Of a stretch of 64,000 bases of DNA, positions 29,095-32,820 are shown piece by piece; the stretch's first letter is position 1; every line of letters begins with the position of its first letter. The DNA lies in the NCBI RefSeq assembly GCF_900101625.1, contig NZ_FMYZ01000001.1, positions 280,304 to 344,303 of the forward strand, read 5' to 3'. A program made the translations under genes and the position numbers. The DNA comes from Cupriavidus sp. YR651 (GTDB lineage: Bacteria; Pseudomonadota; Gammaproteobacteria; Burkholderiales; Burkholderiaceae). The notes beneath the pieces were generated by a model that searched no databases, had not been told where the DNA came from, and saw nothing but the letters and a program-made list of their open reading frames with translations.

Positions 29095-30306
29095 ATGAAG
29101 ATCACCAAGGCGCGCGTTATCGTCTGCAGCCCGGGGCGCAACTTCGTCACGCTGAAGATCGAGACCGACGAGGGCCTGTCCGGCATCGGCGACGCCACGC
29201 TCAATGGCCGGGAACTCGCCGTGGCCAGCTATCTGGAAGACCACGTGATTCCGTGCCTGATCGGCCGGGACGCGCACCAGATCGAGGATATCTGGCAATA
29301 CCTGTACCGGGGCGCCTACTGGCGGCGCGGCCCGGTGACGATGAGCGCCATCGCCGCGGTGGACACCGCGCTCTGGGATATCAAGGCCAAGGCCGCCGGC
29401 CTGCCGCTCTACCAGTTGCTCGGCGGCAAGAGCCGCACCGGCGTGATGGTGTACGGCCACGCCAACGGCAGCGACATCGCCGCCACCGTGGATGAAGTGC
29501 TGCGCTACAAGGAAATGGGCTACAAGGCCATCCGCGCCCAGTCCGGCGTGCCGGGGCTCAACAAGGTCTACGGCGTGTCCAGGGATCGCCTGTTCTATGA
29601 ACCGGCCGACGCCAACCTGCCGTCCGAACACGACTGGAGCACCGAGCGCTACCTCGACCACACGCCCCGGCTATTCGAAGCCGTGCGCGATGCCGTCGGG
29701 CCGGACATCCACCTGCTGCACGACGTCCACCACCGGCTCACGCCGATCGAGGCCGGGCGCCTCGGCAAGTCGCTGGAGCCGTATCGCCTGTTCTGGATGG
29801 AGGACGCCACGCCGGCGGAGGACCAGCGCGCCTTCCGCCTGATCCGCCAGCACACGGTGACGCCGCTGGCCGTGGGCGAGATCTTCAACAGCATCTGGGA
29901 CTGCAAGACGCTGATCGAGGAGCAGCTCATCGACTATATCCGCGCCACCGTGGTCCACGCCGGCGGCATCACGCACCTGCGCCGCATCGCGGACTTCGCG
30001 GCCATGCATCAGGTGCGCACCGGCTGCCATGGCGCCACGGACTTGTCGCCGGTCTGCATGGGCGCGGCATTGCATTTCGACCTCTGGGTGCCGAACTTCG
30101 GCATCCAGGAATACATGCGCCACACCGACGACACCGACGCGGTCTTTCCGCACGCCTACACGTTCCAGGACGGCATGCTGTACCCGGGCGATGTGCCCGG
30201 CCATGGCGTCGAGATCGACGAAGCGCTGGCGGCGAAGTACCCCTACCAGCGGGCCTACCTGCCGGTGAACCGGCTGGCCCACGACGGCACGCTGTGGCAC
30301 TGGTAG
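29095..30306 (+). CDS. manD: D-mannonate dehydratase, enolase superfamily (ManD)
   Basis: A 403-residue enolase-superfamily protein matching the ManD (RspA-like) group along its length, with residues aligned to the characterised enzyme's own numbering. Arg147 and Tyr159 lie in the active-site loop ([16 protein letters not shown]). The metal ligands are Asp210 (LLHDVHH), Glu236 ([10 protein letters not shown]) and Glu262 (AVGEIFN). The acid/base histidines are His212 and His312 ([11 protein letters not shown]). It converts D-mannonate to 2-keto-3-deoxy-D-gluconate, replacing the unrelated UxuA. As I recall, alanine rather than proline at position 314, as here, marks efficient mannonate dehydratases. 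AGACC and a GGGAG site precede the ATG. Confidence 0.92.
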
Positions 30307-30320
30307 ACCGGAGGATGCCC

Positions 30321-31868
30321 ATGCCACGACTCCATCCCGACCAGCTCGACGCCCTGCCCCCCGAGGTCCGCCGGCCCCGCTATGCGCGCGAGCGGCTGCG
30401 CGCAGGCATCGTCCACCTGGGCATCGGCGCCTTTCACCGTGGCCATCAGGCCGAGATCACCGAGGCCGCCATCGAGGCCGGTGGCGAGGATGGCCTCGGC
30501 TGGGGCATTGTCGGCGTGTCGCTGCGCCGGCCCGATACCCACGACGCGCTGATGCCGCAGGGCGGCCTGTATACGCTGTCACTGCGCAGTGCCGGCGATG
30601 GCGGCGAGATCCATGAATCGCTGCAGGTCATCGGCGCGGTGATCGACATCCTGGTGGCCGAGCGCAACCCGGCCGCCGTGCTGGACCGCGTCTCCCATCC
30701 GGACACACGGATCGTCAGCCTGACCGTGACCGAGAAGGGCTACTGCCACGATCCGGCGACCGGCGCCCTGAACCGCGACGATCCGGGGATCGTGAGCGAC
30801 CTCGCGCATCCTGACGGGCCAGTCACCGCCATCGGCTACCTGGCGCGCGGCCTGCAACGCCGCATGGCGCGCGGGCTCGGACCGCTGACGCTGCTGTCCT
30901 GCGACAACCTGGCCAGCAACGGCGACACGCTGCGCAAGGTGCTGCTGGCCTTTTGCGCGGAAATCGATCCGGCGTTGCAAGACTGGGTGGCCACCCGCTG
31001 CACGTTTCCGAATTCGATGGTCGACCGTATCGTGCCGAAGACCACGCCGGACGATGTGGCGCGGGTCGCCACGGCACTCGGGCAGCAAGACGCGTGGCCG
31101 GTCGTCGGCGAGCCCTTCTTCCAGTGGGTGATCGAAGACCGCTTCGCTGCGGGCCGGCCGCGCTGGGAAGCCGGCGGCGCGCAGTTCGTCGACGAGGCCC
31201 GGCCATTCGAGGTGCTCAAGCACCGATTGGTCAACGGCAGCCAGTCGATGATGGCGTACACGGGTGTCATGGCTGGCTGGCCGACCACCGATCGCGTGAT
31301 CGCCCAGCCGGCGGTACGCACGTTCATCGCCACCACGATGGCGCGCGAGGTGCAGCCCACGCTGCCGCCGCTGCCGGGGCTCGACATCGACGCCTACCGC
31401 GACAGCCTGCTGCCGCGTTTCACCAATCCCGCGCTCGGCCACCAGACGCGGCAGATCGCCATGGATGGGTCGCAGAAGATCCCGCAACGGCTGCTGGCGC
31501 CGATCCGTGACCGCATCGCCGCCGGCCAGCCATTCCCCCGGCTGGCGCTGGGCGTGGCCGCGTGGCTGTATTTCCTGCGCGGCTATGACGAGGCCGGCGC
31601 CGCCTACCGGATCGAGGACCCACTGGCCGGGGCACTGGCGGGTGTGATGGCCGAAGCCGAATCGCAGGCGGAAAACCGGTTCGATGCGACCGAGCGAGAA
31701 CGCGTCCGCGTGCGCGCGATCGCCGCATTCCAGCCGGTGTTTGGCGCGTTGGGCGAGTCGGACGTCTTCATCCAGGCCGTCGCGGAACAGCTCGAACGGC
31801 TACGGTCGCACGGCGTGGCCGGCGCCCTGGGCGCGATCAACGCCGCGCCGGACCCAGCCCAGGTTTAG
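30321..31868 (+). CDS. uxuB: Mannitol dehydrogenase-family oxidoreductase, fructuronate reductase-like
   Basis: A 515-residue long-chain polyol dehydrogenase, closest to UxuB, which interconverts D-fructuronate and D-mannonate with NAD(H). Shared segments are IVHLGIGAFHRGHQ (cofactor), VSLTVTEKGYCHDPATG, CTFPNSMVDRIVPKTTP, EPFFQWVIEDRF and AMDGSQKIPQRLL. In the catalytic motif K-x4-N-x2-H the Lys300 and Asn305 are present but position 308 is Gln instead of His (LVNGSQSMMAY). GGAGG is placed correctly for the ATG at 30321, not for the ATG at 30315. The stop codon borders an inserted element that supplies its last base. Confidence 0.87.
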   Translation: MPRLHPDQLDALPPEVRRPRYARERLRAGIVHLGIGAFHRGHQAEITEAAIEAGGEDGLGWGIVGVSLRRPDTHDALMPQGGLYTLSLRSAGDGGEIHESLQVIGAVIDILVAERNPAAVLDRVSHPDTRIVSLTVTEKGYCHDPATGALNRDDPGIVSDLAHPDGPVTAIGYLARGLQRRMARGLGPLTLLSCDNLASNGDTLRKVLLAFCAEIDPALQDWVATRCTFPNSMVDRIVPKTTPDDVARVATALGQQDAWPVVGEPFFQWVIEDRFAAGRPRWEAGGAQFVDEARPFEVLKHRLVNGSQSMMAYTGVMAGWPTTDRVIAQPAVRTFIATTMAREVQPTLPPLPGLDIDAYRDSLLPRFTNPALGHQTRQIAMDGSQKIPQRLLAPIRDRIAAGQPFPRLALGVAAWLYFLRGYDEAGAAYRIEDPLAGALAGVMAEAESQAENRFDATERERVRVRAIAAFQPVFGALGESDVFIQAVAEQLERLRSHGVAGALGAINAAPDPAQV

Positions 31869-32071
31869 AGGTTGTCTCAAAATGAAGCGAAGCGGTTCTG
31901 GCTAGGGCGCAGCAGGGATTTCGGATCGCATGCGATCCGCCTGCGAAGCGGTATGCGCCTACCGGCGCATACGCGCCCTGCAAGGGCGCGGCCGCAGACT
32001 CCATACAAGTGGTACGGCAAGCGAAATGGCAACCCCGGCAACGACGCCAGAATCATTTTGAGGCGACCTCT
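31867..32071. mobile_element. MITE-like inverted-repeat element between convergent genes
   Basis: The ends are inverted repeats matching at 17 of 19 bases: AGAGGTTGTCTCAAAATGA (31867-31885) and the complement of TCATTTTGAGGCGACCTCT (32053-32071). If the element is GAGG...CCTC (31868-32070), both flanks read TTA, a 3-bp duplication of the TNA type made by some IS5-family transposases. Inside are three hairpins in a row: an 18-base palindrome at 31922-31939, GTATGCGC/GCGCATAC at 31951-31972, and GCGCCCT/AGGGCGC at 31973-31989, the last two abutting. No transposase is encoded. The flanking stop codons of uxuB and the TSUP gene use the left junction and the right TTA. Confidence 0.8.
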
Positions 32072-32820
32072 TAGAGCAGCTTCGGCACGGAGGCGATGAG
32101 CATCGCCGCGCCGGAGCACGTGAGCAGCGTCAGCACGATGCGCCGGAAGGCGACATCGCTGATGCCGATATAGACGCGCGTGCCCAGCAGCGTGGGAATC
32201 AGCATCGCCGGCGCGACGATCGCGAACATCGGCAGCATGTCCTTCGTGATGATGCCGGTGCCGATGTAGACCCCCATCGTCACCAGCAGCGCGCCGAGGT
32301 TGAAGTTCTGGATCACCACGCGCTGCGTGTCCTTGTCGAAGCCGCGCAGCGTGCACCACAGCGTGGGGGCGATGCCAGTGAATCCGCCGATCCCGCCCAT
32401 GATCCCGCCAATCCCGCCCACGATGGCGTCGGCCACGCGTCCGCCGTGCCGGATCGGCGGCAGCTTGCCCGAGAACAGCATGATCGGGCACCAGATCACG
32501 AGGATGATGCCGAGGCAGAGCTTGAACAGGTGGACGTCGAGCATCGGCAGGATGGTGACGCCAATGGGAATGCCGACGATACCGCCCAGCAGGAAGGGCA
32601 ATACGGTGGCCAGGTGGAATTTGCGCCGGACCGTGAACGCCGCGAGCAACTGGCCGGTCAGCGCGCCGAAGACGGACATCGCCGAGGCCATCCGGGGCTC
32701 CACGCCCCAGGCCCAGAACGACATGGCGACCATGCCGAAGGCAAAACCGGAAAGACCCTGGACAAAACCGGCGACGACGGCGCCGAGCGCAATGATGAGT
32801 ACGACCGAATCGACATGCAT
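32071..32820 (-). CDS. TSUP-family (TauE/SafE) membrane permease
   Basis: A 249-residue protein with about eight predicted membrane helices and the two TSUP repeats: GAVVAGFVQGLSGFAFGMVAM near the N-terminus and GGIGGIMGGIGGFTGIAPTLW after the central loop. The family moves sulfite, sulfonates or other small organic anions; relatives lie next to many carboxylate pathways. It converges with the sugar-acid operon and is divergent from the MHS transporter gene, separated by 228 bp. Its TAA stop lies within the TTA flank of the inserted element. Confidence 0.87.
   Translation of the reverse strand: MHVDSVVLIIALGAVVAGFVQGLSGFAFGMVAMSFWAWGVEPRMASAMSVFGALTGQLLAAFTVRRKFHLATVLPFLLGGIVGIPIGVTILPMLDVHLFKLCLGIILVIWCPIMLFSGKLPPIRHGGRVADAIVGGIGGIMGGIGGFTGIAPTLWCTLRGFDKDTQRVVIQNFNLGALLVTMGVYIGTGIITKDMLPMFAIVAPAMLIPTLLGTRVYIGISDVAFRRIVLTLLTCSGAAMLIASVPKLL

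Follow-up and report, generated by a model that had tools for sequence, protein, structure and literature searches.

A short inverted-repeat element with a Correia-type core at stop codons of Cupriavidus sp. YR651

The element between uxuB and the TSUP gene

The window considered here is a stretch of 64,000 nucleotides of the Cupriavidus sp. YR651 genome (assembly GCF_900101625.1, contig NZ_FMYZ01000001.1, positions 280,304 to 344,303), in which a short inverted-repeat element of 203 bp (31868-32070) lies between two convergent genes. A mannitol dehydrogenase family gene of the uxuB type (30294-31868, + strand; PF01232, PF08125) reads into its left tip and a TauE/SafE (TSUP) gene, whose product is a TauE/SafE transporter, into its right tip (32071-32820, - strand; PF01925). 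The element is one of at least 60 dispersed copies in this genome, most of which stand exactly on a stop codon, and its family carries a core of the type known from the Correia elements of Neisseria. The stop-codon placement across copies and the Correia-type core are additions to the initial annotation of this stretch, which had been made from the letters of the window.

The element is flanked by a 3-bp target duplication, TTA, at 31865-31867 and 32071-32073 (no strand assigned), in a register tested on 53 copies. Its left terminal inverted repeat, GAGGTTGTCTCAAAATGA (31868-31885, + strand), begins with the G that completes the uxuB stop, which consists of TA and this first base of the element, while the right TTA is at the same time the TAA stop of the TSUP gene; the right terminal inverted repeat (32053-32070, - strand) reads GAGGTCGCCTCAAAATGA on the - strand. 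Both stops had been placed in this way by the initial annotation, which had also described TTA on both sides and 19-base ends matching at 17 positions, and these features were borne out, the ends being counted inward from 31867 and 32071; the end mismatches of the window copy fall at tip positions 6 and 8. An outer core stem has its left arm, GGTTCTGGCTAGG, at 31894-31906 and its right arm, CGACGCCAGAATC, at 32042-32054 (both + strand). The left arm is followed by a segment of the long forms that has no counterpart in the 112-bp form of the family (31907-31985, + strand), and then by the Correia-type core (31986-32044, + strand), the middle of which has diverged in the window copy from the family consensus GCCGCAGACAGTACAANNNGTACGGCAAGGC. 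The segment contains hairpin 1 (CGGATCGCATGCGATCCG, 31922-31939), hairpin 2 (31951-31972) and most of hairpin 3 (31973-31989), which adjoins hairpin 2, all on the + strand; these are the three hairpins left of centre, two of them abutting, that had been reported before. The fold of the element beats all 200 shuffles on both strands (z -5.75 on + and -5.00 on -, with 31869-32071 folded, one base off the limits given above), and folding predicts a long stem for its RNA. The element is short and without a transposase gene, and no gene of its own was seen in it.

Copies in the genome

In the YR651 assembly (6.96 Mb, 46 contigs), at least 55 BLAST pieces match the window element, 40 of 113 candidates having been scored, a recurrence far beyond what chance would give; these pieces are not equivalent to copies, some copies being split into two, and further copies came to light when the tip and the segment next to it were used as search patterns. 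The 67 loci examined hold 68 copies, of which 60 have two clear tips and enter the tip and stop counts, the copies left out being L031, L037, L039, L042, L059, L069, L138 and L139. Thirty of the 60 copies measure 112-113 bp and 22 measure 190-206 bp, and the remainder are of 213, 123-126, 48 or 27 bp (overall range 27-213 bp). The 112-bp form is without the segment corresponding to 31907-31985. Two tip subfamilies occur (GAGGTYGYTTC... and GAGGCRCTATC...), and terminal inverted repeats were found across the copies, as in miniature inverted-repeat transposable elements (MITEs) of the IS5 family. The earlier assignment to a non-autonomous MITE of the IS5-like TNA type is supported by these 60 resolved copies, which make the element anything but single-copy, by their TNA flanks and by IS5-family insertion sequences (ISs) with similar tips in the genus. 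No match was found among 4227 Rfam models, either for the window stretch (E up to 1) or for four loci (E up to 0.1), nor was any found when the 112-bp form was compared with phage records.

Target duplication and empty sites

The flanks of the copies act as a 3-bp TNA duplication. In a preliminary set of 53 copies, which includes a few in the wrong orientation, the middle base of this register is the same on both sides in 34 copies (shuffling gives 19.3), and 10 copies agree at all three positions (3.8 expected); the only other registers above the shuffles are shorter ones contained in the 3-bp register. The first base beyond the tip is A or G on the left in 58 of the 60 own copies and T or C on the right in 59, a pattern broader than a pure TNA target predicts and possibly a carry-over of one donor base. 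Base pairing of the outer flanks beyond the tips was considered and rejected, being no higher than in shuffles.

Two relatives (L098, L099) carry the convergent uxuB-TSUP pair without the element. At these empty sites the 3' ends of the two genes overlap and the end of the TSUP protein is unmoved (VPKVL; VPKLL in the window), in line with the earlier view that the insertion left both proteins intact. For 14 other stop-abutting loci, the two flanks of each were fused into one query, which was run against 10 genomes of the same genus. A stop stands exactly at the empty junction in at least one relative for 12 of the 14 loci, and in 38 of the 50 rows listed for them (hand count; two rows are one place), and no element was seen at the listed orthologous junctions. 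The exceptions are L019, for which no relative aligned, and L048, whose four relatives have no stop at the junction. Since most orthologous sites without the element have these gene ends too, the element lands on pre-existing gene ends and does not create them. A rewriting of the stop by insertion, from TGA to TAG, was likewise considered: the own gene ends at L014, L015b, L030 and L040 are TAG, and TGA stands in 21 of 22 sequences of relatives. The idea was rejected by control genes, since own TAG-ending genes that carry no element correspond to TGA in 20 of 30 sequences of relatives (matches among the loci examined were obtained for 5 of the 13 control genes).

Stop codons at the tips

A tip was taken to abut a stop when the gene reading into the element ends at distance 0 or +1, gene ends being assigned with a custom codon score that had been trained on the window, in place of a standard gene finder. 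By this measure a stop lies exactly at a tip in 40 of the 60 own copies (67%), at the right tip in 35 and at the left tip in 6, the window copy being the one that has both. The null was drawn from tolerated sites, at which an insertion leaves genes intact, in a 464-kb sample of the same genome with slightly stricter gene-calling thresholds than for the copies; it gives abutment rates of 0.5% for any tolerated site, 8.6% for TNA and 24% for C-TNA-G, and the observed count differs from the last of these with p about 4e-12. The 35 right-tip stops comprise 18 TAG, 11 TAA and 6 TGA, and the 399 gene ends of the sample 248 TGA, 80 TAG and 71 TAA; richness in TAG and TAA at the tips is as expected, because the target contains TA.

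IS5-family insertion sequences as candidate parents

Thirty-four IS5 rows were screened, four from the own genome (two of them the same region) and 30 from relatives, and 12 same-genus IS5-type elements with placeable tips were used for the counts of tips, duplications and stops. IS5-family tips in the genus, such as GAGACTGTTTCAAAAAGA, differ from the family tip GAGGTTGTTTCAAAATGA at 3 of 18 positions, and 8 of the 12 placed elements have an exact TNA duplication. These include L157 (986 bp, tips GAGACTGTTTCAAAAAGACG, TTA), which stands on the TAG stop codon of an MFS gene, and L149 (tips GACCGGCTAACAAAACTC, TTA); the others are L146, L164 and L155 with TAA and L165, L162 and L168 with TTA. 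The L149 transposase scores 253 bits on the NCBIfam model transpos_IS5_3 (cut-off 110), and that of L157 is split over two frames, one above and one below the cut-off. ISs with a transpos_IS5_3 transposase (DUF4096), which we take to be IS1031-like, thus resemble the element in their GARRCYGTTTCAAAAAGA-type tips and their TNA duplication, but they differ in having a transposase (about 0.85-1 kb); no core was seen in them, and they abut stops in only 3 of 12 cases. A comparable relation has been proposed for RUP of Streptococcus pneumoniae, a MITE that would be mobilised in trans by a known IS through matching tips (PMC2229807). By that description RUP is similar to the window family in having tips that match a known IS, and differs in belonging to the IS630 family with a TA target, whereas the element here is IS5-like and uses TNA.

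The Correia-type core and its spread

The 112-bp form has 27 and 28 matches in two N. gonorrhoeae records, the best of them 83% over 53 bases, and BLAST also finds it in Paraburkholderia, Eleftheria terrae and C. metallidurans; the full-length query against plasmid records matches only two C. metallidurans records. One Neisseria match, L140, lies within a 106-bp element with Correia ends and agrees with the published lengths, the AAATTTAAA ends and the TCAGGACAA side of the Correia elements (CREE, NEMIS; PMC2649163). The Cupriavidus family resembles these elements in the core GCCGCAGACAGTACAANNNGTACGGCAAGGC, which is present in the family although diverged in the middle of the window copy, in the lack of a transposase, in the large number of copies and in the occurrence of a short form of about 105-113 bp next to a longer one. 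In contrast, Correia elements have TATAGTGGATTAA ends and a TA target, and the Cupriavidus element has GAGGYYGYTTCAAAATGA-type ends and the 3-bp TNA register. Furthermore, the only 155-bp Correia element seen, L344, has its extra segment on the opposite side of the core.

An exact core pattern of 25 fixed letters occurs in at least 97 stretches of genome contigs. Among the 80 of these matches that were listed, the hosts are Neisseria, Cupriavidus, Vogesella, Crenobacter, Aquitalea, Chromobacterium, Ralstonia, Acidovorax, Roseateles, Accumulibacter, Oxalobacteraceae and others, with one Avibacterium. The Avibacterium match (L311, A. paragallinarum) is a core copy in a gammaproteobacterium, which might stem from transfer or from a contaminated record, and seven viral or prophage contigs of IMG/VR (L402-L408) contain the exact pattern as well. 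When a covariance model built from 27 cores was run on 399 genomes of the order, with no more than 11 candidates scored in each, it matched in 97 of them (the own genome included) and in 51 of 158 genera. In a class-wide draw it was found in 11 of 369 genomes, namely the own genome, two others of the order and eight with single matches, seven of them weak. The inverted repeats around the core are lineage-specific and mostly match left to right, being TATAGTGGATTAA in Neisseria, GAGCGGCTAACAAAACYC-like in several genera and GAGRCYGTTTCAAAATGA-like in Cupriavidus; at some core loci no clear inverted repeat was found. In two Accumulibacter loci (L305, L375) the core is bounded by ends of yet another type (TTCCTTTTCCAGTTCATTC), and a 3-bp duplication may be present.

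ERIC and REP/BIME are intergenic hairpin repeats, some of them within the 3' ends of transcripts, and by description resemble the element in both respects. ERIC has been described as an intergenic hairpin repeat (PMC10969869). No report of Correia-type cores outside Neisseria, or of this repeat, was found in the search listings of an open-licence library that covers few subscription journals. A 2009 paper states that the Correia repeat had been found only in Neisseria and that its mobilising mechanism was undetermined (PMC2649163). A relative that has the Correia core together with ends pointing to a named transposase family would make origin and mobilisation testable with laboratory strains that are harmless.

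Paired changes in the stem

Among 26 paralogues of the own genome, 99.0% of pair cells are standard pairs, and double changes occur at 8 of 39 pairs, compared with a shuffled mean of 1.8 (none of 500 shuffles reaches the observed number) and 0-2 in slid controls. Twenty-seven cores from across genera have double changes at 8 of 18 pairs. One copy, which abuts the end of a gene of the aceF type (2-oxoacid dehydrogenase acyltransferase), is kept with conserved flanks in five Cupriavidus-type genomes, those of YR651, Cupriavidus sp. BIS7, C. necator A5-1 and two further members of the genus (L047:509-620, L079:1431-1542, L176:1485-1596, L218:932-1043 and L322:3008-3119), and is vertically inherited. 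Its five orthologues have double changes at 3 of 39 pairs (shuffled mean 0.8, reached in 8 of 500 shuffles; none in slides), one of these pairs occurring in the three states G-C, C-G and A-U. The count of their further pair types is unexceptional, since 103 of 500 shuffles reach it and one slide gives more. This copy is the strongest single case of paired changes, yet five sequences make it limited evidence.

Of the 28 tip mismatches that the copies contain outside position 6, 14 form a G.U pair when read on the + strand and one when read on the - strand; the remaining 13 form no pair on either. Shared ancestry of several copies lowers the number of independent events. A simple scan of the window copy for an intrinsic terminator (GC-rich stem and T run) found none in 31700-32250. 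In many 112-bp copies the core stem is followed by GATCTTTTTG; the scan covered the window copy only. A role of the element as a terminator, which the initial annotation had suggested as possibly shared by the two convergent genes, or in mRNA processing may be envisaged, and a repeat placed on stops with the proteins kept offers a natural experiment on the effect of a strong hairpin right after a stop.

Probable mobilisation and survival on stop codons

We consider it highly probable that the element is a non-autonomous MITE which is moved by IS5_3-type transposases at TNA, carries a Correia-type core and mostly survives on stop codons. An IS5-family transposase of the transpos_IS5_3 type would read its ends and insert it at TNA, often within C-TNA-G, with duplication of the TNA. 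Insertions inside genes would be lost, and stop codons would be over-represented among the harmless sites that remain, so that placement on stops would arise because of the target motif together with the loss of harmful insertions. Most surviving copies of the own genome would thereby sit exactly on a stop with the protein kept, and the 3' untranslated region would now begin with the stable hairpin. For the window copy, the target would have been TTAG, where the stops of the two convergent genes overlapped, and the TTA duplication together with the first G of the element would have preserved both. More than one transposition system would have acquired the core, because it occurs across the order with different inverted repeats. 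The extra stop excess in this genome is tentatively put down to the keeping of hairpins immediately behind the stop. The number of copies, their ends and empty sites, the register of the target, the common core and the paired changes are observed; selection on the hairpin and any effect on transcripts are inferred.

Several observations weigh against this reading. The tips of the known ISs match those of the element well but not exactly, all three duplicated bases are identical in no more than 10 of the 53 copies, and 4 of the 12 ISs (L158, L167, L145 and L148) have no exact duplication, L145 and L148 carrying another tip type. A search of the own genome for an IS with the element's tips, allowing up to two mismatches, found none, although at this setting ISs with L157-like tips would be missed; domain searches of the same genome gave three regions only, two IS5-type transposase regions and one marginal match, all with other ends. 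Of the full-length IS with the same ends that the initial annotation had asked for, the genus thus provides similar tips and TNA duplications; the ends are not identical, and the own genome yielded none. Mobilisation in trans by a particular transposase is therefore inferred from relatives. The placement on stops is also less marked outside this genome. Abutment was found in only 13 of 32 copies from other genomes (p about 0.03 against the 24% null, which was computed in the own genome only), with a weak orientation bias of eight right and five left. These copies comprise 29 of the genus and three of a neighbouring genus; the tips of L221 and L222 fit poorly, one locus of a single genome is counted twice as L218 and L219, and the own L047 has orthologues in L079, L176 and L218/L219. 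Because 13 of 32 is not much above the null and several rows are orthologous, the strong stop excess and the orientation bias are established for the Cupriavidus sp. YR651 genome only, and the orientation rule is not supported as a general property. The Correia elements of Neisseria differ in this respect altogether, as none of 22, judged by open-frame length only, abuts a stop exactly.

The position on stops could instead reflect selection rather than insertion preference, if the element were a domesticated 3'-end RNA whose hairpin is selected as a terminator, an insulator against antisense transcription or an RNase III site. In its favour are the stop excess beyond the C-TNA-G null, the retention of the aceF-type-stop copy in five genomes with three double-changed pairs and the G.U tip mismatches on the + strand (14 of 28, against one on the -), and ISs with a similar target abut stops in no more than 3 of 12 cases. 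We regard this as possible but, on the whole, doubtful, given that 13 of the 28 tip mismatches pair on neither strand, that the further pair types of the orthologues do not exceed their controls, that the terminator scan of the window copy was negative and that the + strand is antisense to the gene which usually abuts; moreover, few ISs were compared, and copies belonging to one subfamily do not count as independent. The paired changes might, on the other hand, be unselected products of template switching during replication, which copies one arm of an imperfect palindrome onto the other, with the stop position left by survivorship after harmful insertions were lost. Long inverted repeats whose tips match even when both deviate (L135, L023, L137 and L047) are consistent with such copying; survivorship might explain some of the 67% at stops, and abutment elsewhere is near the null. 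This seems rather unlikely, because the C-TNA-G null consists of tolerated sites already and yet gives only 24%, and because arm copying would not be expected to produce the strand asymmetry of the G.U mismatches, few as the independent events are. Mobility as single-stranded DNA by a Y1/RAYT-type transposase, as for REP or IS200/IS605, would account for the strong folding and the oriented insertion in the own genome without a DDE enzyme, but is very improbable in view of the terminal inverted repeats, the duplicated target and the IS5-family elements with similar ends.

Returning to the IS5_3-type MITE, a wider proposal can be put forward tentatively, with less confidence than its mobilisation and placement. 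The Correia core may be an ancient, order-wide module that survives by swapping inverted repeats among transposases, of TA type in Neisseria and of IS5/TNA type in Cupriavidus and other genera, and that in Cupriavidus is docked on stops, where its pairs would be selected to shape mRNA 3' ends.

Minor features of the copies

In Cupriavidus left tips, GAGG is followed ten bases on by ATG AAG CGA AGC GGT YCT GGC TAG, an arrangement that resembles a ribosome site and a start with a seven-codon frame; the ATG is missing in the Eleftheria and Paraburkholderia copies (L143, L144). Two minimal forms of 27 bp (L064:1011-1037 and L067:1061-1087) consist of little beyond the two tips, and L015 holds a tandem pair of full copies (509-710 and 714-916) with a few bases between them.

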